Assembly (NCBI GenBank): GCA_029261965.1
Contig: JAJDAH010000480.1
Location: 1 to 39,930, forward strand
Direction of reading: 5' to 3'
Length of the DNA: 39,930 bases
DNA from: Polyangiaceae bacterium
GTDB lineage: Bacteria > Myxococcota_A > Polyangia > Polyangiales > Polyangiaceae
Every line of letters starts with the position of its first letter. Positions within the stretch are counted from its first letter, which is position 1. The notes beneath the pieces are model-generated. The model was not told the DNA's origin. It worked only from the letters and a program-made list of their open reading frames with translations, and searched no databases. The translations under genes were made by a program, and so were the position numbers. Below are positions 14,110 through 28,944 of this stretch, one piece after another.

Positions 14110-15045
14110 ATGCGATTATTTCGAGTGCTGGCAACGGCGCTGCTCGGCGGCGCTTTGACGGTGGGGGCGAGCGGGTGTCTGAAGAAGGCACTCGTCAACG
14201 GACAGATCAAGAGCACCCGCGATGGGTCGGCTGCGCTCAACACGCTGCACGACTGGGAGGTCGCGCGGGCGGCGGGTCAAGCCGGTCTCGGCACGCTCGA
14301 GGGCATGCACTCGCTGGCCCCCGAGAACGTCGACGCTCTGTTCATGCTCACCCGCGGTTGGGGTGGCGCGACATTCGGATTCACCGAAGACGACTACGAA
14401 GCGGCGCTCGCCAGAGGCAACGACGTCGAAGCCGAGTATCACCTCGCGCGTTCGCGCGCCGGTTGGAACCGCGCGGTGCACTATGGTGTCGAGCTGCTCG
14501 GGCACTACGCGCTCGGTTTCCAGGACGCGAAAAGAAACGTGAGCACGATGAGGGCGTGGGTCGTGGAAAACTTCAACGATCCGGAGTTGGCGGAGGACCT
14601 CGTTTGGGTCGGCTACGCCTGGATCGGGCGCGTAGCTTCCTCCTCGGACATGCCTGAATTCGTCGGCGAGCTCTACGTCGGCGTCGAGCTCGTCAAGCGA
14701 AGCGTCGAGCTCGACCCGAAGGTCGCCCACGGAACGGGCCATACGATCCTCGGCGCGTATCACGCGCGGACCGCGCAATCCGAGCTCGAGGACAGCAAGA
14801 AACATTTCGACATGGCCATGAAGGTCAATGGCGGGAAGTTTCTCGCCACCCCACTCAACTTCGCCACGCGCTACTACTGCGCCAAGCGCGACAAGGCGAC
14901 GTGGGAAAAAATGCTCAACGACGTGCTCGCGCACCCCGACGACCTTCCGGAAGCGCGCTTGCAGAACACCATCGCCAAACGAAGGGCGCGGCGGTACCTG
15001 ACCCACCCCGACGTCTTCACCGAGAACTGCGGCTTCGATCTCTGA
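14110..15045 (+). CDS. tatT: TatT-family TRAP transporter-associated TPR lipoprotein
   Basis: 311-residue lipoprotein (lipobox ASGC, Cys23) matching the TatT family, the T component of TRAP systems first described in Treponema. These TPR-like proteins form a trimer with a pore, bind the TRAP receptor (P component) and are thought to pass ligand to it. Recognisable features are the N-terminal ANGQ-like segment (LVNGQIKSTRDGSAAL), ENVDALFMLTRGWGGATFGF, and long helical repeats through residue 300. The adjacent DctP, DctQ and DctM genes complete the system. It ends 252 bp before the receptor gene; that gap holds no gene. Confidence 0.88.
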   Translation: MRLFRVLATALLGGALTVGASGCLKKALVNGQIKSTRDGSAALNTLHDWEVARAAGQAGLGTLEGMHSLAPENVDALFMLTRGWGGATFGFTEDDYEAALARGNDVEAEYHLARSRAGWNRAVHYGVELLGHYALGFQDAKRNVSTMRAWVVENFNDPELAEDLVWVGYAWIGRVASSSDMPEFVGELYVGVELVKRSVELDPKVAHGTGHTILGAYHARTAQSELEDSKKHFDMAMKVNGGKFLATPLNFATRYYCAKRDKATWEKMLNDVLAHPDDLPEARLQNTIAKRRARRYLTHPDVFTENCGFDL

Positions 15046-15297
15046 TCGGGGTTTCAGGTACTCACGGTGCCGGGCCACCGACGTGCCCCGCAAAATCGCT
15101 CCCTCAGACCCACGCAAGTGGCTGAATTTCAGTCGGTTTTCTGGTTTTTCCCGTGAACAGGGACGCAACTTTTATCCTCGGTCATTGATCTGATTCAGCC
15201 GCTCGACCGTCTCACTTGGGGCCGGTTCTCGGTCCCCCATTCATCACCGCTTTTTTTGAACAGCTCGCAGCACCGCACCATGAAGGAGTCCAAGCCC

Positions 15298-16281
15298 ATG
15301 ATTCGTAAGCTGAGCGCAGCAGTACTCGCCGCGTCATTCGTTCTCGCCGGCACCGTCAGCGAGGCCGAAGCCGCAACCAAGGTGAAGCTCGCCACGCTCG
15401 CGCCGAAGCGCAGTCCGTGGGGCAAGGTCTTCACCACCTGGTCGAAGGCCGTGAAGAAGATGACCAAGGGTGGTGTCGACGTCACCTGGTACTGGAACGG
15501 AACCGCGGGCCCGGAGAAGGGCGTAGTCGGCAAGATCAAGTCCGGCCAGCTTCACGGTGCGGCGATCACCGCCGTCGGGCTTTCGGCCATCTACAAGCCG
15601 ATTCTGGCGCTTCAGTTCCCCGGCGCCTTCAAGACGTGGGCGGACCTCGACGCGGCGCGCGCCAAGCTGGCGCCCGACTTCGAAGCGGCCGTCAAGGCCG
15701 AAAACTTCATGATCACGGGTTGGGGTGACGTCGGCATCGGCCGTGTGATGAGCAAGGGGTTCTTCGTCAAGCATCCGAACGACCTCAAAGGCAAGAAGCC
15801 CGCGGCAATTCGCGACGACATCATCGCGCCGAAAATCTACGAGGTCATCGGCGGAGTCACCCCGGTGCCCGGATCGGTCACGGAGTTCCTGCCCAAGCTC
15901 AACAGCGGCGAGATCAACGTGATGAACACGCCGTCGCTCGCGGCCGAGCAGCTCCAATGGGCCTCTCGCCTCGACCACATCAACACCAATGCCACATACT
16001 TCGGCATCGGCGCCGTCGTGATGAGCAAGAAGGCGCTCAACAACCTGCCCGCCGACCAGCGCGACATCCTGCTGAAGACCGGCAAGAAGGCGGCCAAGGC
16101 GCTGACGCGCCGCATTCGCAAGGCTGACGATCAGGCCTTCGACCGGCTGAAGAAGAAGATGAAGGTCCACGACGCGACGCAGTCGGAGAAAGATGCCTGG
16201 AACAAGGTGTTCAAGGCCGCCTGCGGCCGGCTCAAGGGCGCGATTCCCGGCAAGGTGCTGAGCGACATCGGCGCCTGCTGA
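15298..16281 (+). CDS. dctP: TRAP transporter substrate-binding protein DctP/TatP
   Basis: 327-residue periplasmic TRAP receptor. Signal peptide about residues 1-25 (cleavage near AEAAT), then KVKLATLAPKRSPWGKVF, typical of the DctP N-terminal lobe. The region around MSKGFFVKHPNDLKGKKPAAIRD corresponds to the segment that in classical DctP proteins contains the carboxylate-gripping Arg. The ATG at 15298 is chosen: AAGGAG lies 9 nt upstream (15283-15288) and the signal peptide begins here; a TTG at 15256 is less likely. Next to TatT, it is the P component of a TPAT system. The substrate is unknown. A strong terminator separates it from the permease genes. Confidence 0.92.
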   Translation: MIRKLSAAVLAASFVLAGTVSEAEAATKVKLATLAPKRSPWGKVFTTWSKAVKKMTKGGVDVTWYWNGTAGPEKGVVGKIKSGQLHGAAITAVGLSAIYKPILALQFPGAFKTWADLDAARAKLAPDFEAAVKAENFMITGWGDVGIGRVMSKGFFVKHPNDLKGKKPAAIRDDIIAPKIYEVIGGVTPVPGSVTEFLPKLNSGEINVMNTPSLAAEQLQWASRLDHINTNATYFGIGAVVMSKKALNNLPADQRDILLKTGKKAAKALTRRIRKADDQAFDRLKKKMKVHDATQSEKDAWNKVFKAACGRLKGAIPGKVLSDIGAC

Positions 16282-16307
16282 GAGCCCGCGACCGCACAAA
16301 AGCAGCC

Positions 16308-16342
16308 CGAGCCGGCCCCCCCATGGGCCGGCTCGAGTCTTT
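16308..16342 (+). terminator. Intra-operon terminator between dctP and dctQ
   Basis: CGAGCCGGCCC (16308-16318) pairs perfectly with GGGCCGGCTCG (16325-16335) around a 6-nt loop and is followed by AGTCTTTTGT. It would limit read-through from the receptor gene into the permease genes, giving more receptor than permease. Confidence 0.8.
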
Positions 16343-16472
16343 TGTATGCACGAGCTCGGACTCGCGCAGGCGCGCGGGGCCCGTCGACCAGTCAGCCGGG
16401 GCGAGGCCCATGGGCCCTCCTGCGCTTAGGTAATGACGGACGGCGTCAATTTCGGCATAAAGTCGGCTGCCC

Positions 16473-18095
16473 ATGGCCGGCGACGAGCGCGACGATGCCG
16501 ACGACGGCTCGGAGGAGGACGCGGGGAAGGACCCCGAGCCGACCGCCGAGGAGTCGAGCGGCAATAGCGACGAAGGGGACCGGCAGAAACCGGCGGCCTG
16601 GGGGCGCCCGCTCGTGCGACTGGACGAGTCGTGGACGAAGTTCGAGGCGTGGCTCTGCGTCGTCGTGCTCATCCTCGAAATCGTCTCGCTGAGCGCGTGG
16701 GTCGTGCTCAAGGGCATGAGCTCGCCGCCCGGCAGCGGGAGTAACGCTGGAGTCGTCTTTCGCGCCATCTTCGCAGCGCTCTTTCTCGGGCTCGGCGCCT
16801 ACTACGTGCTCAAGAAGCAGGGCGTCATGGCCCAGCGAATCGGGGCCATCGCCGGGATCTTCATCGGCATCTATACGGCGAAGTACTGGTCCAACGTCGG
16901 GGTCGACTACGCCTCCAACCTGCTCAACTGGTACCAGCAGGCGTCGTTCTTGACGCTGCTCGGTGGGCTGCGGGGCGTCGGCACGCGCCTCACCCTGATG
17001 TTGGCGCTGCTCGGTGGCTCGTTGGCGACCGCCGCGGGCAAGCACATCACGATCGACTTGGTCACGCGATTCATCAGCCCCAAGGCGCGAGTGCCCGTCG
17101 TGCTGATCGGTTGGGTCGGAGCGGCAATGGTTTGTTTGTCGGCCTCCTGGGGGTTCTTCGATCACATCGCCATCGAGAACTTCGGGGCGCGCGCTGACGC
17201 GAAGCCGGGGGAAAAGGTCGAAGCCGTCTACGACGAAATCGGCGAGCACTTTTTCATCGCGCGAAAACAGATCAAGCTCGACCTCAAGAGCACGCCGCAC
17301 ATCGTCTTCAAGAACGAGCCTTATTCCGGGTGGTTCACCGGCGCTGAGTGGAATCAGTGGCTCGACGACGAGGATTTCGCCGAACGCTACGGGAAAGAGA
17401 AAATCGACGGCCTCAAGGTGGAGCCAGACGAGCTGCGGTCCCCCATCTTGGTCGTGCCGGGCAAGGGCGAGCCGCGCGGTGAGCTGATCCACGCGGCAAA
17501 CCTCGTGTTTCCGCTGGGCCTGCTGATCATCGCCTTGCGCTTCTTGCTGCGGTCGCTCTTGGTGGTGAGCCGTCACGTCGGCATCGACTCCGAGTCCGAG
17601 GACGATCACTTCGACTCGTCGAGCGAGGGCAACGGCGGAGACGACGACGACGACGACGACGACGACGACAGGGAACCGGACAGCGCGAAGAAGAAGGACG
17701 TCAAAGACAAGTCCGATCCAGAACCCAAGGACAAGAAGCAACCGGACGAAACGGACGAAAAAGAGGCCGACGACGACAAGAAGACCGACGACAAGGCCGA
17801 CGACGAGAAGGCGGACGACAAGAAGGCCGACGACGAGAAGGCCGACGACAAGAAGGCCGACGACGAGAAGGCGGACGACGAGAAGGCCGACGACAAGAAG
17901 GCCGACGACAAGAAGGCCGACGACAAGAAGGCGGACGACGAGAAGGCGGACGACGAGAAGGCCGACGACAAGAAGGCCGACGACAAGAAGGCGGACGACG
18001 AGAAGGCCGACGACAAGAAGGCCGACGACGAGAAGGCCGACGACAAGAAGGCCGACGACAAGAAGGCCGACGACAAGAAGGCGGAGAAAGAATGA
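16473..18095 (+). CDS. dctQ: TRAP transporter small permease DctQ with inserted soluble domain and long charged tail
   Basis: 540 residues, against about 160-220 for ordinary DctQ. Order: acidic N-terminus (1-45), hydrophobic helices near 57-80, 90-112 and 120-140, then the DctQ-like core with RGVGTRLTLMLALLGGSLATAAGKHITIDLV and a following helix; a soluble segment of about 100 residues (roughly 228-335); a further helix (about 340-365); and an Asp/Lys/Glu tail of about 170 residues that ends in 19 units of ADDKK or ADDEK. The ATG at 16473 is used; CATAAA lies 11 nt upstream and no Shine-Dalgarno is seen. Its stop overlaps the dctM start (ATGA), so the two permease subunits are coupled. Confidence 0.82.
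   Translation: MAGDERDDADDGSEEDAGKDPEPTAEESSGNSDEGDRQKPAAWGRPLVRLDESWTKFEAWLCVVVLILEIVSLSAWVVLKGMSSPPGSGSNAGVVFRAIFAALFLGLGAYYVLKKQGVMAQRIGAIAGIFIGIYTAKYWSNVGVDYASNLLNWYQQASFLTLLGGLRGVGTRLTLMLALLGGSLATAAGKHITIDLVTRFISPKARVPVVLIGWVGAAMVCLSASWGFFDHIAIENFGARADAKPGEKVEAVYDEIGEHFFIARKQIKLDLKSTPHIVFKNEPYSGWFTGAEWNQWLDDEDFAERYGKEKIDGLKVEPDELRSPILVVPGKGEPRGELIHAANLVFPLGLLIIALRFLLRSLLVVSRHVGIDSESEDDHFDSSSEGNGGDDDDDDDDDDREPDSAKKKDVKDKSDPEPKDKKQPDETDEKEADDDKKTDDKADDEKADDKKADDEKADDKKADDEKADDEKADDKKADDKKADDKKADDEKADDEKADDKKADDKKADDEKADDKKADDEKADDKKADDKKADDKKAEKE
17796..18080 (+). repeat. 19 tandem 15-bp coding repeats (ADDKK/ADDEK) in dctQ
   Basis: Nineteen in-frame 15-bp units of the form GC(C/G)-GAC-GAC-(A/G)AG-AAG, differing mainly at the wobble base of Ala and in the Lys/Glu choice at position 4. 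The order by unit is E K E K E E K K K E E K K E K E K K K. Near-identity of the DNA suggests expansion by slippage or unequal recombination. Confidence 0.95.
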
Positions 18096-19777
18096 TCATT
18101 CTTCTCTTCGTTCTGGTTTTTGCTCTGATCGGCGCACCCGTGTTCGCCGTCATGGCGGGCACCACCGAGCTCTCCTGGCTGCTCCACGACAACGAGGAGC
18201 TGCGCTTCGTCCGGTTCCTGGCGCCCGATGTTCTCGACGAGCGCTTCGCCGGATCGCCGATTTTGGTCACGGTGCCGCTCTTTACTTTCATCGGCTATGT
18301 CATGGCCGAGAGCCAGACCCCGAGCCGCATCGTTCGGGCGTCGAATGCGTTCTTCGGGTGGATGCCGGGCGGCCTGGCCATCGTGTGCATCTTCGCGAGC
18401 GCGTTCTTCACGACACTGACCGGCGGAAGCGCGGTCACCATCGTGGCCATCGGCGGGTTGCTCTATCCCGCGTTGCGCAAAAAAGGCTACGCCGAGGACT
18501 ATTCCCTCGGTCTCGTCATGACCGGCGGCAGCTTGGGACTGTTGCTACCGCCGTCGCTGCCGATTCTCGTGTACTCGCTCGTTGCGGGTATCGACTTCAC
18601 CAAAGCCTTCAAGGCCGGGATCATTCCCGGTTTCATGGTCATCGCGCTGTTGGGCATCCACGCCGGCTACATCGGCATCAAGCAGAAGATCCCGCTGACC
18701 CGGCCGGACTTCCGCGAAATGGGCGCCGCGATGTGGATGATGAAGTGGGAGATGGGCATTCCCGTCCTCATTCTCGGCGGGCTGATGACCGGCCTCACGG
18801 GCATCGACGAAGTTGCCGCCCTGGCCGCCCTGTACGTCTGGATCATCGAGGTCTACGTCTACAAAGACCTCAAGTTCAAAGATCTCACGCGCATCGCCAA
18901 GAACTCCATGGCGCTCGCCGGCGCCGTGCTGCTCATCATGAGCATGGCCATGGCGCTGACGAACTTCATCATCAGCGAGCAGATCCCGAGCAAGATCTTC
19001 GAATGGGTCACGTCGATGGGCGTGACCGAACGGTGGCACTTCCTGATCACCCTGAACATCTTCCTCTACATCCAGGGCATGGTCATGGATGGGTTCAGCG
19101 CAATCCTCGTCGCCGTGCCGCTGTTGATCCCGTTCGCTGCGAAGTTCGAGCTGTCGCCTTTCCACCTGGCAATGATGTTCCTCTTGAACCTCGAGATTGC
19201 CTACCTGAGCCCGCCGCTCGGCCAGAACTTGTTCGTGGCGAGCTTCCGGTTCAACCGGCCGATGATTTCGCTGTATCGGATCGCCGTTCCATTCATCGCG
19301 ATCCTCCTCGTCGGGCTGGTTCTGCTGATGACAGTGCCCCAGCTTTCCACCGTCGCCGTCGAGGGCGACATCGCCCTCAGCCGCGCTCAAGCCGCGCGCT
19401 ACAACGAGCCTCCACGAGAAGCGTGGTTGATGCAGTGCGTGCAAGAGGACCGAAACAATCCGCTTCCGTGCACCGACGAGGACCGTGACAAGTTCGGCAG
19501 TGGAACCGACATCGGCCTCAAGATCGAAGAGCCCGAAGACGATCTCGAGGACGAAGACAGCGACGGGACTGATGGGGACTCGATGGACGAGCTCGAAAGA
19601 GACCTCATGGGCGAGGACGACGACGACGGCAGCGAGAGTGATAGCCTCGACGAGCTCGAAAAAGACTTGATGGGCGAAGACGACGACGAGGACGACGAAG
19701 AGAAAGACGACGGGGACGATGCCCTCGACTCCGACAACCTCGACGACCTCGAAGACGAGCTCATGAAGGACGATTGA
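18092..19777 (+). CDS. dctM: TRAP transporter large permease DctM with repeated acidic C-terminal tail
   Basis: 561 residues; residues 1 to about 415 are the DctM ion-transporter-type core with about 11-12 helices, including FFTTLTGGSAVTIVAIGGLLYP and GGSLGLLLPPSLPILVYSL, which match the family's signature loops. DctM drives sodium- or proton-coupled uptake of the ligand delivered by the receptor. The core is followed by a short segment with two Cys and then about 85 acidic residues containing three copies of a DELEKDLM-like motif. Ordinary DctM ends after the last helix at about 425-430. Its neighbours make it the permease of the TPAT system. Confidence 0.92.
   Translation: MIILLFVLVFALIGAPVFAVMAGTTELSWLLHDNEELRFVRFLAPDVLDERFAGSPILVTVPLFTFIGYVMAESQTPSRIVRASNAFFGWMPGGLAIVCIFASAFFTTLTGGSAVTIVAIGGLLYPALRKKGYAEDYSLGLVMTGGSLGLLLPPSLPILVYSLVAGIDFTKAFKAGIIPGFMVIALLGIHAGYIGIKQKIPLTRPDFREMGAAMWMMKWEMGIPVLILGGLMTGLTGIDEVAALAALYVWIIEVYVYKDLKFKDLTRIAKNSMALAGAVLLIMSMAMALTNFIISEQIPSKIFEWVTSMGVTERWHFLITLNIFLYIQGMVMDGFSAILVAVPLLIPFAAKFELSPFHLAMMFLLNLEIAYLSPPLGQNLFVASFRFNRPMISLYRIAVPFIAILLVGLVLLMTVPQLSTVAVEGDIALSRAQAARYNEPPREAWLMQCVQEDRNNPLPCTDEDRDKFGSGTDIGLKIEEPEDDLEDEDSDGTDGDSMDELERDLMGEDDDDGSESDSLDELEKDLMGEDDDEDDEEKDDGDDALDSDNLDDLEDELMKDD
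19577..19774 (+). repeat. Three repeats of a DS-x-DELE-x-DLM motif in the DctM tail
   Basis: Copies start at 19577 (DSMDELERDLM), 19640 (DSLDELEKDLM) and 19727 (DSDNLDDLEDELM), separated by Asp/Glu-rich spacers; the first two continue GEDDDD or GEDDDE. The hydrophobic residues (M/L, L, L, M) would line one side of a short helix. Confidence 0.85.
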
Positions 19778-19787
19778 CGCTTCGGGG

Positions 19788-21224
19788 TTAGAGCTTGATG
19801 CCGTGCCAGTCGCCGCTGGCGAACTTCCAGGTCATGACGCCGGCGAGGCCGATAACGTAGGCGACAGCAGCGCTCCAGATGCCAACCAGACCCAGCTCGA
19901 GAGTCACGCCGAGTAGCCAGGCGAGCGGCACCAAACACAGGAAGTGCAGCAGGAGCTCGGCGATCATGACGAACCGCGAGTTGCCCGCACCAAAAAGCGC
20001 CTGCGTGAAAATCATGCCAACGGCGATGACCGGAGTGCAGATGCCCATCATCCTCATCGGGAGCATGGCGGCCTCGAGAACCGCCGGGCTGTCGTTGAAG
20101 AACGAGATGATCTGGCGAGGAAAAATCACGCCTTCGAGAAGGCCGACCACACCAAAAATGATCAGGCCGAGTCGAATCGAGACCCAGCCGAACTTGTCGG
20201 CTTTTTTGGCGTCCCCCTCGCCGAGCGACTGACTGACGAGAGTAGCCGTCGACGTTCCGAAAGCGAGGCACGCCGTGAACGTGAGCTTGAGCACGCCGAC
20301 GACGACCGTCGTCGCGGCGCCGTTGACCGCTTCGACTTTTTCGCCGGGCTTCGGGACGAGAGCGGGCCCGTCCGGGCTGTCCAAGTAGCCGACGATGATG
20401 CTGAACAGCAAGAACCCACTCATCACCGCGATGGTCGCCACACCGCTCGGGATCGACAACTTGAGCACGTCCCAAGTCAGTCGCTTCGACCACTTTTTCA
20501 TGCGAAACGGTTGATAGAGTTCGAGGTACTTCGGGAACACCGCCCACAGCACCATGATGCCAAGACCGATCCACGTCGCGATGAACGCGGCGACGCCGGC
20601 CCCCGCCATTCCCATGCGAGGCGCGCCCCAATTGCCGAAGATGAACATGATGCAGAAAATGACGTTCGCGATGTTCATCACGATCGCGCTGACCATGTGC
20701 ACGTGAGTTTTTCCTATGCCGTCGAAGAACGCCTTGAACGAAAAAGTGATCGCCATGCTCGTGATGGCGAGCAATCGCCACTGGAGATACCCTTCCGCCG
20801 CCTCTCGCACCTCCGCCACTTTGAAAACGACCGGCAGAATCACCGGCAACAAGAGGTAGCAAATTGCGGTAAACGTGACGCCCGCGAGCGCCGAGAAGAA
20901 CCACGCGTTCAACAACACCGCACCGGCGTCGCTGTGCTTTTTTTCGGCGAAGCGCCTCGCCGTGATGGCCTGAGTACCCACTGAGATGGCGCTCAGAGAA
21001 CCGCCGAACATCCACAGCAGCACCAGCGAAGGAAAAAGCGCCGCCTGGGCGTTCGACGATTCCGGGTGGGGCAGCTGGCCGAAAAACCAGATATCGATTT
21101 CGTTGACAATGCTCTGAGTCATCATCGCCATCACCGTCGGAGCGGCGAGGCGGAGCACCACCCAATACGGCGAGCCCGTCGTGACTACGTTCGCACCGGA
21201 AGCGCTGATCGACGGGGACGCCAT
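19788..21224 (-). CDS. MATE family efflux transporter
   Basis: 478 residues with 12 predicted helices in the two-bundle arrangement of multidrug and toxin extrusion proteins. Family features include the N-terminal LRLAAPTVMAMMTQSIVNEID segment and the pseudo-symmetric second half beginning at about 250 (LKLSIPSGVATIAVMSGF). Between helices 7 and 8 there is an insertion of roughly 20 residues (SPDGPALVPKPGEKVEAV) not usual in the family. It is convergent with dctM, 10 bp apart, and no terminator-like stem is seen there. Export substrate unknown; drugs, dyes or metabolites are typical. Confidence 0.93.
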   Translation of the reverse strand: MASPSISASGANVVTTGSPYWVVLRLAAPTVMAMMTQSIVNEIDIWFFGQLPHPESSNAQAALFPSLVLLWMFGGSLSAISVGTQAITARRFAEKKHSDAGAVLLNAWFFSALAGVTFTAICYLLLPVILPVVFKVAEVREAAEGYLQWRLLAITSMAITFSFKAFFDGIGKTHVHMVSAIVMNIANVIFCIMFIFGNWGAPRMGMAGAGVAAFIATWIGLGIMVLWAVFPKYLELYQPFRMKKWSKRLTWDVLKLSIPSGVATIAVMSGFLLFSIIVGYLDSPDGPALVPKPGEKVEAVNGAATTVVVGVLKLTFTACLAFGTSTATLVSQSLGEGDAKKADKFGWVSIRLGLIIFGVVGLLEGVIFPRQIISFFNDSPAVLEAAMLPMRMMGICTPVIAVGMIFTQALFGAGNSRFVMIAELLLHFLCLVPLAWLLGVTLELGLVGIWSAAVAYVIGLAGVMTWKFASGDWHGIKL

Positions 21225-24914: not shown

Positions 24915-26852
24915 ATGAACAAGGGAACAGCCATCGTCGGCTTCATCCTCTGCTTCCTGGCAGGGGCGATGCTGACTTACGGAATCGACCGAAACCGCGG
25001 CGTGGCGGACATCGGTCCTGAATCGGCGAGCGCACGCGGCGGCCTCGACCACAGCGCCTCGCCTGTGCCGGTCACCAAGGACGATCCGGCGTGGGGCGAT
25101 CCGGACGCACTGGTCACCATCGTGGAGATCAGCGACTTCGAGTGCCCATTCTGCAGCCGCGTCAACCCGACGATGAAGCAGATCAAGGACACCTACGGGC
25201 CGAAGAAGGTGCGCATCGTGTGGAAGCACAACCCACTGCCTTTCCACAAGAACGCTCGCGGCGCGCACGAGGCTTCGCAAACCGTCTTCGCGGTCGCTGG
25301 CCACGAGGCATTCTGGAAGTTCCACGACTTGGCCTTCCAGAATCAGAAAAGCCTGAACGACGCCAACTACGAGACTTGGGCGGGACAAGCCGGCGCCGAC
25401 GTCGCGAAGTTCAAGGCGGCCTACTCGTCGAAAAAGCACGCCGCCAAGGTCGACAAGGATCTCGCCATGGCCCAGTCCATCGGAGCCCGCGGCACACCGC
25501 ATTTCCGGATCAACGGGGTGACCGTCAGCGGCGCGCAGCCCTTCCCGAAGTTCAAGGAAGTCATCGACGCCGAGCTCAAAGAAGCCGAAGCGCTGCTCAA
25601 GGGCGGAACGAAGCGCGCGGCGGTGTACGTCGAGCGCACCAAGGCCAACCACAAGGCCGCCCCGGCGAACCCGCAGCAGCAGCAAAAGGCCCAGGCGCCG
25701 CCGGTCGACACGACCGTCTGGAAAGCAGAGGTCTTCGACGAAGACCCGATCCAGGGCAAAAAGGACGCCCTCGTGACGATCGTCGAGTGGTCCGACTACC
25801 AGTGCCCCTTCTGCAAGCGTGTCGGGCCGACACTCAAGCAGATCAAGGACACCTACAAGGACGACGTCCGCATCGTGTGGAAGGACAACGCCCTTCCGTT
25901 CCACCCGCGGGCGAAACCTGCCGCGACGCTAGCGCACGTAGCGCGCAAGTCCGGCGGACACGACAAGTATTTCCAAGCCCACGACGCCCTCTTCGAGAGT
26001 CACCCGAAGCTCGAAGACGCCGATCTGCAAGCAGTCGCCAACAAGCTCGGCCTCAACTGGGACACCGTGAAAAAGGCGATCGACGGAGACACCTTCGGCA
26101 AGCTGATCGCCAAAAACATGGAGCTCGCGCAGGCGCTCCAGGCCCGCGGCACGCCGCACTTCTTCATCAACGGTCGTCGACTGAGCGGCGCGCAGCCCTT
26201 CGACAACTTCAAGAAGCTCATCGACGAAGAGCTCGCGAAGGCCAAAGCGATGGTCGCCAAGGGCACGCCGCGTGCCCAGGTGTACGCGACCATCATGAAA
26301 ACCGCGAAGGGTGAGGACAAGAAGGACGTGCCCCCGCCCACGAAGAGCGACCCCATCAAGGGCAAGCTCAACGCCAAGGTGATCGTGCACGAGTTCTCGG
26401 ACTTTCAGTGCCCCTACTGCAGCAAGGTTCTCCCGACGCTCGACCAGGTGAAAAAAGAGTACGGCGACAAGGTCGCCATCGTGTGGCACGACCTGCCGTT
26501 GCCATTCCACCAGGACGCGCCCCTGGCGTCCGAAGCCGCCCACGAGGCGTTTGCCCAAAAGGGCAACGATGGCTTCTGGGCGTTCCACGACAAGCTGTTC
26601 GCGAACCAGAAAGAGATCAAGCGCCCGGCGCTCGAGAAAATTGCCCAAGAGATCGGTCTCGACATGACGAAGTTCAAGGCCGCCCTCGACAGCAACAAAC
26701 ACAAGGCCAAGGTCGACGCGAACAAGGCCATGGCTCAAAAAGCTGGAGTGACCGGTACCCCTGGTTTCGTCATCGACGGGAACTTCATCAGCGGTGCCCA
26801 GCCCTTCCCGGCGTTCAAGGCCCAGATCGACAAGGCTCTGGCAAAGAAGTAG
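24915..26852 (+). CDS. Three-domain DsbA-like thioredoxin fusion, membrane-anchored
   Basis: 645 residues: one N-terminal helix (about 5-22) that would serve as anchor or signal, then three DsbA/Thioredoxin_4-type domains at about 50-240, 268-465 and 475-645. Each has an active site CxxC (CPFC 77-80, CPFC 297-300, CPYC 499-502) preceded by DFE/DYQ/DFQ, and a cis-proline loop (GTPHF, GTPHF, GTPGF). Each domain ends with a VSGAQPF-like block. Linkers are Lys/Gln/Pro-rich. The protein likely makes or isomerises disulfides in the periplasm. Typical DsbA-like proteins have one domain; no DsbB or DsbD gene is nearby. AGAGAG lies upstream of the start. Confidence 0.9.
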   Translation: MNKGTAIVGFILCFLAGAMLTYGIDRNRGVADIGPESASARGGLDHSASPVPVTKDDPAWGDPDALVTIVEISDFECPFCSRVNPTMKQIKDTYGPKKVRIVWKHNPLPFHKNARGAHEASQTVFAVAGHEAFWKFHDLAFQNQKSLNDANYETWAGQAGADVAKFKAAYSSKKHAAKVDKDLAMAQSIGARGTPHFRINGVTVSGAQPFPKFKEVIDAELKEAEALLKGGTKRAAVYVERTKANHKAAPANPQQQQKAQAPPVDTTVWKAEVFDEDPIQGKKDALVTIVEWSDYQCPFCKRVGPTLKQIKDTYKDDVRIVWKDNALPFHPRAKPAATLAHVARKSGGHDKYFQAHDALFESHPKLEDADLQAVANKLGLNWDTVKKAIDGDTFGKLIAKNMELAQALQARGTPHFFINGRRLSGAQPFDNFKKLIDEELAKAKAMVAKGTPRAQVYATIMKTAKGEDKKDVPPPTKSDPIKGKLNAKVIVHEFSDFQCPYCSKVLPTLDQVKKEYGDKVAIVWHDLPLPFHQDAPLASEAAHEAFAQKGNDGFWAFHDKLFANQKEIKRPALEKIAQEIGLDMTKFKAALDSNKHKAKVDANKAMAQKAGVTGTPGFVIDGNFISGAQPFPAFKAQIDKALAKK

Positions 26853-26869
26853 CAGCGCGAGTGGGGACA

Positions 26870-26891
26870 GGGCCCGGCCCCGGCCGGGCCC
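26870..26891 (+). terminator. GC-rich hairpin between the two triple-DsbA genes
   Basis: GGGCCCGGCC (26870-26879) and GGCCGGGCCC (26882-26891) form a perfect inverted repeat with 2 nt between them; weaker pairing (GAGT/ACTC) extends outward. No T-run follows, so it may be a weak terminator, a transcript-processing or stabilising stem. Confidence 0.45.
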
Positions 26892-26934
26892 GACTCCTCG
26901 CACCGGCGCGCGTGACCCGTCACACTGAGCCGGT

Positions 26935-28944
26935 ATGAAGAGCACCCCGAGGAACCGCCACGAGCGGGCTGTCGTAAGAAGGTCGATAGCTCGTTTCGTG
27001 GCGTTTCTGTTTCTCGGCCTCGGCCTTCTCGGCTGCGCGGCCCGAGCGCCCGGAGCTGGCGCGAACACCGCACCAGCCGAAACGACCGCACCAGGCGAGG
27101 CTGCGCCATCACTCGTTTTGGCCCCAAGCGGGTACGAACGCTCGTCAATCATCCCGGTCGGCGACGACGACGCCGTGTGGGGCTCGCGGGGCGCGCCCGT
27201 CACCATCGTCGCCTTCATGGATTTCCAGTGCCGTTTCTGTGGCGAGGCGTTCACCACGGTTCGAACGCTCGCCGACGAGTACGGCGGCGACCAGTTGCGG
27301 GTAGTCTTCAAGCACCATCCGCTCCCCTTTCATCCGCGCGCGATGCCCGCGGCCCTCGCCAGCGAAGCGGTGCTCGAAGTCGGGGGAGCTGACGCGTTCC
27401 TGACCTACGCCACCGAGCTGTTCGCCCACCGAACGGCGCTGAGCGACGACAACCTCCGGCTATGGGCCGCGCAGCTCGAGCTCGATGTCGAAAAGGTCGA
27501 GCAACATGCGCGCGGCCGGCGAGCCGCCGCAAAAATCGCTCGGCACGTCGAGTTGGCCGAGCGCCTCGGAGCTTCGGGCACTCCAGCGTTCCGGGTCAAC
27601 GGTCGAACGATTCATGGCGCTCAACCGATCATCAAGTTTCGCCAAGTCATCGACGACGAGCTCCGGGCCGCCGGAGACCTCGTGCGACAGGGGGTGCCGT
27701 CAGGCGCGGTCTACAACCGGCGGGTCCAAGCCAATTTCTCTCCCACCCCCGAACCCGGGGCTGCGAGTCGCCCGACGGTCGACGAGAATGTTCGCCAGTT
27801 CGTGCCGGTCGGAGATTCGCCGGCGCTCGGGCCGGCGGACGCGCCCGTCACCATCGTCGCGTTCCTGGATTTTCAGTGTCCCTACTGCGCGCGCGGCCTC
27901 ACCACGATGAAGAAACTTCTCGAGCTTTACCCGGCAGACGTCCGGGTGGTGTTCAAGCACAACCCATTGGCGTTTCATCCGAGGGCCGTACCAGCGGCCC
28001 TGCTCGCCATCGAAGCCCGAAGCCAGCAGGGCGAGCCGGGGTTCTGGACCGCGACGGACAAACTCTTCGCGGGTGATCTCGAGCCGTCCGGCCTACTGGC
28101 GATCGCAAACGACCTCGGTCTGACGACCTGGAAGGTGAAACGCGCGCTCGCACGCTCGACCCACGACGACATCGAAGAAGACGTCGCTCTGGCGTGGGAC
28201 GTGCGCGCCACGAGCACGCCGCACTTTTTCGTGAACGGACATCGTCTCGCCGGGGCAAAACCTCTCGAGGCGTTCACCGAGCGCGTCGTGGAGGAGCTGG
28301 CCGAGGCCGAGAAGCTCGGCCGAGCCGGCGTTTCCCGCGCCCATCTGTACGAGCAGCTCACCAAAGACGCCCGCCGCCCCGACCCTCCCGAGCGACGTGC
28401 CATCGGCTCGGCACCCGCGAGCGCGCCTTCTCGAGGCAACCGGAACGCGCCCGTCGTCATCCAGATGTTTCAAGACTTCCAGTGCCCCTTCTGCGGTCAC
28501 GTGGTGCCGACCCTCGAGGCCCTCGAAAAGGAATTCCCGGGAAAAATCCGTTTCGTCTGGCGGAACTATCCTCTCGGGTTTCACCACGACGCGCGTCCAG
28601 CCGCAGCCGCAGCCCTCGAAGCGAAAGCCCAACGGGGCGACGCGGCATTTTGGAAGATGCACGACCGGATCTTCGAGCACCGCGAGAACGGCATGAAAGA
28701 GGACCAGCTCGTGGCCCACGGTCAGGCGATCGGTCTGAACGTTCAGCGCTTCCGAGCAGCGTTGGCTGACGGCCGCCACGATGCGGCGATCGACCGCGAT
28801 TTGGCGGTCGCGGCGCAGCTCTCGGTCAACGGCACGCCGGCGTTCTTCGTCAATGACTTCTTTCTTTCGGGCGCCCAGCCGCTGCCCGCGTTCCGCAAGC
28901 TCGTGCACCTGGCGCTGCGCGAGGCCAAAACCAAGAAGCCCTGA
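26935..28944 (+). CDS. Three-domain DsbA-like thioredoxin lipoprotein
   Basis: 669 residues, a diverged partner of the preceding gene with the same three-domain plan. It is a lipoprotein (hydrophobic core then LLGC, Cys34). Active sites: CRFC (99-102), CPYC (315-318) and CPFC (517-520); cis-proline loops GTPAF, STPHF and GTPAF. Domain linkers are shorter and more Arg/Pro-rich than in the first protein. The first domain has Arg after the first Cys where Pro is usual, which should alter its redox potential. The two genes are 82 bp apart and probably arose by duplication of a triple unit. It ends 10 bp from the convergent kinase gene. Confidence 0.9.
   Translation: MKSTPRNRHERAVVRRSIARFVAFLFLGLGLLGCAARAPGAGANTAPAETTAPGEAAPSLVLAPSGYERSSIIPVGDDDAVWGSRGAPVTIVAFMDFQCRFCGEAFTTVRTLADEYGGDQLRVVFKHHPLPFHPRAMPAALASEAVLEVGGADAFLTYATELFAHRTALSDDNLRLWAAQLELDVEKVEQHARGRRAAAKIARHVELAERLGASGTPAFRVNGRTIHGAQPIIKFRQVIDDELRAAGDLVRQGVPSGAVYNRRVQANFSPTPEPGAASRPTVDENVRQFVPVGDSPALGPADAPVTIVAFLDFQCPYCARGLTTMKKLLELYPADVRVVFKHNPLAFHPRAVPAALLAIEARSQQGEPGFWTATDKLFAGDLEPSGLLAIANDLGLTTWKVKRALARSTHDDIEEDVALAWDVRATSTPHFFVNGHRLAGAKPLEAFTERVVEELAEAEKLGRAGVSRAHLYEQLTKDARRPDPPERRAIGSAPASAPSRGNRNAPVVIQMFQDFQCPFCGHVVPTLEALEKEFPGKIRFVWRNYPLGFHHDARPAAAAALEAKAQRGDAAFWKMHDRIFEHRENGMKEDQLVAHGQAIGLNVQRFRAALADGRHDAAIDRDLAVAAQLSVNGTPAFFVNDFFLSGAQPLPAFRKLVHLALREAKTKKP

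Follow-up and report, generated by a model that had tools for sequence, protein, structure and literature searches.

A TPAT-type TRAP transporter of a Polyangiaceae bacterium with a candidate periplasmic docking array on its large permease subunit

We examined a tripartite ATP-independent periplasmic (TRAP; TC 2.A.56) transporter encoded in a 39,930-base stretch of DNA (the window), which is an entire contig of a 9.59 Mb Polyangiaceae genome (assembly 96% complete). Four plus-strand genes at 14110-19777, in the order T-P-Q-M, encode TatT, DctP, DctQ and DctM:

14110..15045, plus strand: TatT, T component lipoprotein, 311 residues, lipobox GASGC (PF16811, 111.7 bits, cut-off 26.5)
15298..16281, plus strand: DctP/TatP, solute-binding protein (PF03480, 82.9 bits; NF037995, 199.7 bits)
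16473..18095, plus strand: DctQ, enlarged small permease subunit, 540 residues (PF04290, 27.2 bits, residues 173-229; AlphaFold model)
18092..19777, plus strand: DctM, large permease subunit with a C-terminal extension, 561 residues (PF06808, 247.8 bits; fold of 7qha_B)

An initial annotation made from the DNA letters had grouped these genes as a transporter associated with a tetratricopeptide repeat (TPR) protein, known as the TPAT type of TRAP transporter. The grouping was borne out, as PF16811, PF03480 and PF06808 were matched and PF04290 fell just below its cut-off of 28.3 bits, and DctM also exceeded the cut-off of TIGR00786 (282.3 against 268.45 bits; NCBIfam). The PF04290 match to DctQ covers residues 173-229 alone, and its assignment is additionally supported by its position beside DctM. 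With a T component that carries a lipobox, a DctP that lacks the canonical arginine and the gene order T-P-Q-M, the transporter is a TPAT-type TRAP importer. The lipobox of TatT was seen by eye and by regular expression, and TatT is thus a predicted lipoprotein; a phmmer search of PDB sequences gave it two weak matches only, the better one to a TPR protein (E 0.0027). The DctP open reading frame begins with a TTG at 15256, but an alternative ATG at 15298, which follows AAGGAG and opens a signal peptide (MIRKLSAAVL...), is the more likely start. DctP is a secreted, basic protein (+19 over the 284 residues counted) in which no lipobox was found, and it matched 28 distinct solved sequences in the PDB. 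One DctM gene and two T-component genes were found in the assembly; the second T component (locus L036, G000:C129:9767-13444) has 358 residues and adjoins an open frame that looks protein-kinase-like by eye. The nearest named homologues bear the labels Polyangiaceae, Byssovorax, Polyangium and Myxococcales, and most are metagenome-assembled.

The core of DctM is a TRAP permease by sequence and by fold, the best Foldseek match of its AlphaFold model being 7qha_B (TM-score 0.85 by target). The model was built from an alignment of 56 sequences (the window and 55 of 78 usable named loci). Beyond the last membrane helix, DctM continues for about 147 residues, which comprise a module with a cysteine pair and about 91 acidic residues with a repeated amphipathic motif:

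19340..19501, plus strand: DctM residues 417-470, conserved module with Cys449 and Cys460, periplasmic by homology (pLDDT, the model's per-residue confidence, 94-97 over residues 411-470; alignment)
19502..19774, plus strand: DctM residues 471-561, acidic motif array, mostly disordered by prediction (ten-residue blocks, pLDDT 40-70)
19580..19609, plus strand: motif copy 1, SMDELERDLM, residues 497-506 (predicted helix 498-505)
19643..19672, plus strand: motif copy 2, SLDELEKDLM, residues 518-527 (predicted helix 520-526)
19736..19765, plus strand: motif copy 3, NLDDLEDELM, residues 549-558 (predicted helix 553-557)

The first description of this tail, about 85 acidic residues with a repeated motif, was therefore right but somewhat understated: the repeat was confirmed in three copies, and the extension is longer than the figure given. 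A pattern built from the three copies was found once in 20,000 shuffles of the tail. Cys449 and Cys460 are the sole cysteines of DctM apart from Cys99. Downstream in the window (24915-28944, plus strand), two proteins of 645 and 669 residues contain several DsbA/thioredoxin-like stretches; they are interesting beside a periplasmic cysteine pair, and nothing ties them to the TRAP operon.

The charges that flank the last DctM helix fit the positive-inside rule, as the loop before it (RFNRPMISLYR) holds three arginines and the first dozen residues after it have no lysine or arginine. The M subunit of TRAP transporters is described as N-out/C-out (PMC9971032), and because the DctM core matches these permeases, the extension should lie in the periplasm. 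A frameshift or assembly artefact as the source of the tails of DctQ and DctM is not indicated by the sequence: the G+C content at third codon positions remains high in both (0.92 and 0.77) and the two genes overlap by 4 nt, as in coupled genes, which together give no hint of a frameshift.

We next determined how widely the extension occurs. DctM sequences were taken from 36 stretches of relatives, 80 named loci, 80 stretches of the order and the window, a sample chosen by kinship; 197 were extracted, of which 168 remained distinct after near-identity reduction on the core. Tail lengths fell into two classes, at least 50 residues in 126 of the 168 and fewer than 20 in 42, with none in between; contig ends cut L068 (counted as tail-less), and L058 (counted as tailed) runs off its contig. 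All of the eleven closest distinct homologues listed carry tails, of 103-153 residues, which answers in the affirmative whether close relatives have the DctM tail. Among the 80 named loci, the 39 tailed ones have record titles naming Myxococcota, Myxococcales, Polyangiaceae and similar groups, or merely 'delta' or uncultured, and the 41 tail-less ones name Bacteroidota, KSB1, Ignavibacteria, Gammaproteobacteria and others, or only Deltaproteobacteria or bacterium. Homologues labelled as other phyla had no tails in this sample, and most of them have TatT nearby. A later, non-random set of 20 loci was hand-picked from the best T-component matches across the phylum; DctM was matched in 17, and omission of the truncated L252 left 16 usable Myxococcota loci, in which tails measured 80-158 residues in five, 28 residues in one and at most 12 residues in ten. 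A tailed DctM is therefore the norm within the window's order; in the rest of the phylum its occurrence is patchy. The earlier statement that normal members lack such tails holds for solved TRAP permeases and for the tail-less TPATs of the sample; it does not hold for the window's own family.

By eye, the tails have in common that acidic residues precede hydrophobic pairs set at intervals. A Cys block was matched in 71 of the 126 distinct tails, exactly two cysteines being present in 53 of the 71. In these Cys-block tails the motif expression gave 62 matches, compared with a mean of 0.34 and a maximum of 3 after shuffling. As the motif expressions were composed after the tails had been viewed, a motif-free repeat test was added and applied to 124 of the 126 tails, two being too short; an internal repeat scored above all 200 shuffles in 77 of the 124, and p was at most 0.05 in 91. 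The flavour of the motif differs between groups: it is DDLLKEMMG-like in the Cys-block clade, GETLDDL or LDLDALE in other families, and MEEMMREA at several loci of a second DctM type (L215-L231). Cys-bounded ESFEDF segments occur in L122, L069 and L070, and NLDLDALL in L251. Separately, the DctM tails of L221 and L222 hold two copies of PPEDLNCDGNVTIEEM-like segments, which we take to resemble dockerin or EF-hand calcium loops.

Could the tail be no more than a spacer? It might serve as a partnerless periplasmic spacer or an acidic brush that attracts cations, with repeats produced by slippage while selection weakly favoured acidic, disordered sequence. All 126 distinct tails have a negative net charge, the type and number of motifs vary between lineages, and the genome carries expanded KKADD repeats in the DctQ tail and in a PilZ protein, all of which would suit such a spacer. 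The excess of motif matches in the Cys-block tails over shuffled sequences argues against it, as do the short helices predicted at the motifs and the tail of L248, a locus of the later set, which is net positive and still repeats a KDLLKQL motif. We consider a spacer unlikely. The divergence of motif flavours between lineages would also be expected if the tail recruited a changing partner from outside the operon, such as an outer-membrane or cell-wall factor or another envelope protein. No candidate for such a partner was found, though no genome-wide partner search was made, and the single DctM found in the genome has a tail without a second match elsewhere in that 96% complete assembly. A partner of this kind seems to us quite improbable.

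We then asked which component of the operon might pair with the tail. Across 61 loci, tail charge ran opposite to that of DctP (Spearman -0.55, p 4.6e-6). Independent contrasts gave the same direction (r -0.39, p 0.002), with a sign-flip p of 0.027 and the two charges moving oppositely in 35 of 52. By contrasts, tail charge was not significantly related to the charge of TatT (r 0.16, p 0.25) or of the DctM core (r 0.15, p 0.26). It is among loci with a Cys-block tail that the pairing with DctP is seen (rho -0.52, n=38). The alignment columns at which the DctP of tailed loci becomes more positive are scattered along the sequence, and no patch could be mapped.

An acidic tail could instead dock TatT, a TPR-like lipoprotein, and so hold a TatT ring above the permease. 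TatT of Treponema pallidum has TPR-like helices (PMC5812351). Certain TPR proteins recognise short acidic motifs at the C-termini of other proteins, and Hsp90 offers a precedent in MEEVD, bound by TPR (PMC13107436). The DctM motif often lies near the C-terminus, ending within 6 residues of it in 19 of the 71 Cys-block tails against a mean of 0.02 in 300 shuffles. Of the 126 tailed loci, 77 have a T component within the stretch fetched. However, an acidic TatT is encoded at 75 of 76 tailed loci (median charge -9), and its charge does not track that of the tail after phylogenetic correction. As 31 of the 42 tail-less distinct loci carry TatT in the fetched stretch too, TatT does not require the tail, and TatT as the general reason for the tail was rejected as a requirement. 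Docking of TatT is an unlikely explanation in our judgement. A lipid-anchored DctP, which might substitute for the tail, was rejected as well: the lipobox expression matched none of 34 tail-less and two of 61 tailed DctP sequences (L040 and L193, ordinary signal peptides by eye), leaving 34/34 and 59/61 with no lipobox. For TatT the same expression was too strict, as it missed plain GC lipoboxes, and its TatT counts were set aside.

The explanation we prefer, with a probability of roughly 0.42, is that DctM of this TPAT-type importer bears a periplasmic docking array for which DctP is the favoured partner. The extension would lie in the periplasm, the compartment in which TatT and DctP operate, and its motifs might engage a periplasmic partner through many weak contacts. 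Such multivalent binding would raise the local concentration of the partner at the permease, and a soluble, basic DctP could from there move to the site at which it docks on DctM. A broader proposal, which we hold only tentatively, is that Myxococcota TRAP permeases repeatedly gained fast-evolving periplasmic tails, each with several copies of a short amphipathic motif, that recruit the solute-binding protein or the T component multivalently.

Several observations weigh against recruitment of DctP by the array. Where the Cys block is missing, the tails showed no charge pairing (rho 0.02, n=23), nor was it reproduced in the 16 later Myxococcota loci (rho 0.17, p 0.53), and because it fails in these two sets, DctP is no more than a candidate partner. 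Addition of the five later tailed loci lowered the raw Spearman value to -0.42 (n=66); L248 combines a tail of +10 with a DctP of +23, and L245 and L251 have tails of -19 with DctP of -7 and -3. When the four most basic DctP were removed, contrasts gave r -0.25 (p 0.064) and a sign-flip p of 0.10, the direction being opposite in 28 of 49. The correlation was exploratory, first seen at n=23, so that its p-values are optimistic, and without correction TatT charge tracks tail charge positively (rho 0.65, n=76). Half of the tails (64 of 126) match none of the four motif patterns, with many holding variants by eye, and the C-out topology of DctM comes by homology only. Homologues labelled as other phyla and ten of the 16 later loci, with at most 12 residues, manage without a tail; TRAP or TPAT transport in itself therefore does not depend on one. 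On balance, DctP is only moderately favoured as the partner, and for the window's clade only.

The binding site of DctP bears on what may be carried. In the column equivalent to Arg-147 of SiaP, set by alignment to 4nq8, the window protein has alanine. Arginine occupies this carboxylate-binding column in one of 95 aligned DctP, that of L073, a locus with a distant DctM (28% identity) and no T component within its fetched stretch; the other 33 of 34 tail-less DctP have tryptophan, and none of the 61 tailed ones has arginine. Because the canonical arginine is replaced by alanine, a typical carboxylate held by that residue is an unlikely ligand. Tp0957 of T. pallidum has alanine at the same position and a hydrophobic pocket (PMC4646407), and by analogy we would guess at a hydrophobic ligand for the window DctP.

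DctQ is unusual in its body as well as in its tail. The features that enlarge it are as follows:

16746..16889, plus strand: DctQ residues 92-139, a pair of predicted helices additional to the canonical four (AlphaFold, 92-112 and 118-139)
17184..17504, plus strand: DctQ residues 238-344, loop added between the final two membrane helices, periplasmic by homology (AlphaFold, pLDDT 90-97)
17586..18092, plus strand: DctQ residues 372-540, K/D-rich C-terminal tail (ten-residue blocks, pLDDT 38-57)
17771..18082, plus strand: 15-bp tandem repeat in the tail, encoding (K/E)KADD units (Tandem Repeats Finder, 21 copies, 91% matches)

The AlphaFold model, from 28 aligned sequences (the window and 27 of 28), has a confident body and a low-confidence tail, with a pLDDT of at least 90 for 281 of 540 residues, and places helices at 42-83, 92-112, 118-139, 144-156, 165-188, 203-237, 245-279 and 345-365. 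The canonical Q subunit is described with four helices, TM1-TM4, in an N-in/C-in arrangement (PMC9971032). The simplest topology for the window protein would add two putative membrane helices and a periplasmic loop of about 107 residues; that loop could speculatively also touch DctP or TatT. These extra helices and the long loop went unmentioned in the initial annotation. DctQ is likewise large among homologues in the window's clade, and where DctM has no tail the adjacent Q gene is mostly an open frame of 157-219 residues. Searches with the DctQ sequence against PDB sequences and with its model by Foldseek against the PDB (E <= 0.001) gave no match, and the best VIA-align match had a Z of 6.1 over 48 residues, with no TRAP Q subunit among the matches listed; these searches are not evidence of a new fold. 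Nine identical residues, KPGEKVEAV, are shared by the extra loop (17202-17228) and the neighbouring MATE protein (19788-21224, minus strand); the two genes differ synonymously in the underlying DNA, and the identity may be due to chance.

The DctQ tail consists of 169 residues, in agreement with the roughly 170 charged residues first reported, and contains an aspartate run (17640-17669) followed by the 15-bp array. It is predicted to be disordered and, by homology, cytoplasmic. DctQ tails could be measured in 70 of the 160 proteins of the distinct set, where the profile match reached the end; one of these (L099) is fused, leaving 69, with a median tail of 26 residues. Eight reach at least 100 residues: the window, L155, L038 and five other loci that have a common, different segment. 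Long tails are thus found in two of the window's five closest relatives, with other sequence (L155, 194 residues, K/D-rich with another unit; L038, 121 residues, acidic), and the remaining three have 52 (L039), 27 (L156) and 37 (L040). The KADD repeat was found in the window only, among the 69 DctQ measured, and the KADD tail as a family trait was rejected. The DctQ tail is probably a lineage-specific cytoplasmic K/D minisatellite expansion with little sequence-specific function.

A similar repeat lies elsewhere in the window. A PilZ-domain protein (PF07238; 31789-33366, minus strand) has KKADD repeats in its middle and a long A/P repeat as its C-terminus; its 15-bp unit is near-identical to that of DctQ, on the opposite strand, and encodes the same peptide. 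Outside the window, L049, L051, L067, L093 and L165 have DctQ tails of 177-218 residues, presumably cytoplasmic, with a common RTLVGDLSELARAQE near the end. In the fused L099, from a metagenome-assembled genome labelled uncultured Archangium, DctQ and DctM form one open frame, and the DctM tail has 64 residues, the Cys block and one motif.

Both tails are charged and are encoded by adjacent, overlapping genes, and the initial annotation had suggested a charged contact between the two permease subunits. By homology the tails lie on opposite membrane faces, M being C-out and Q C-in (PMC9971032), which makes contact between them unlikely; moreover, the DctQ tail is shorter than 100 residues in 61 of the 69 loci, yet DctM is tailed in all 69. 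We regard contact of either tail with the other, or with the other permease subunit, as highly improbable. The two should be treated apart, DctQ as bearing a low-complexity expansion inside and DctM a conserved motif array outside.

The coupling of a soluble binding protein to the TRAP permease has been called poorly understood (PMC9971032), and tails or coupling of this kind were not described among the matches listed in our searches of open-licence PMC papers. A recurring, correctly sided tail with countable motif copies would make receptor recruitment experimentally testable. If the proposal is true, the array would be a bacterial periplasmic example of multivalent linear-motif recruitment and a way to couple a soluble receptor with a secondary transporter.

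The closest known system is the T. pallidum TPAT (TatPT/TatT/TatQM), which, like the window, has a T component in the operon and a TRAP permease; its DctP also lacks the canonical arginine, with alanine in both (Tp0957, PMC4646407), and the window DctP matches the T. pallidum chains 3u65 (Tp33) and 4di3 (Tp0957). Unlike T. pallidum, which has a single tatQM gene (PMC5812351), the window has separate Q and M genes, and its DctP has no lipobox that we could see. The published TatQM descriptions compared mention neither the extension of DctM nor, for DctQ, the additional helices, the loop or the tail. SiaQM (7qha, 8thi) and IseQM (9pym) share the core fold and sequence family of DctM, but their chains end soon after the core (last aligned residues 415/427, 648/655 and 629/635) and therefore have no room for the tail module or a motif array. 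Another member of the T-component superfamily, BstC of Methylococcus, binds sterols and has a hydrophobic cavity, and its gene, unlike that of the window TatT, adjoins sterol genes (PMC10942540). The ATP-binding cassette importers OpuA and GlnPQ keep linked binding domains at high local concentration near the permease (PMC11065425, PMC8025302); theirs is a covalent fusion on an ATP-driven importer, whereas the array proposed here would act non-covalently on a secondary transporter, so that the resemblance is a functional analogy and no homology is claimed.

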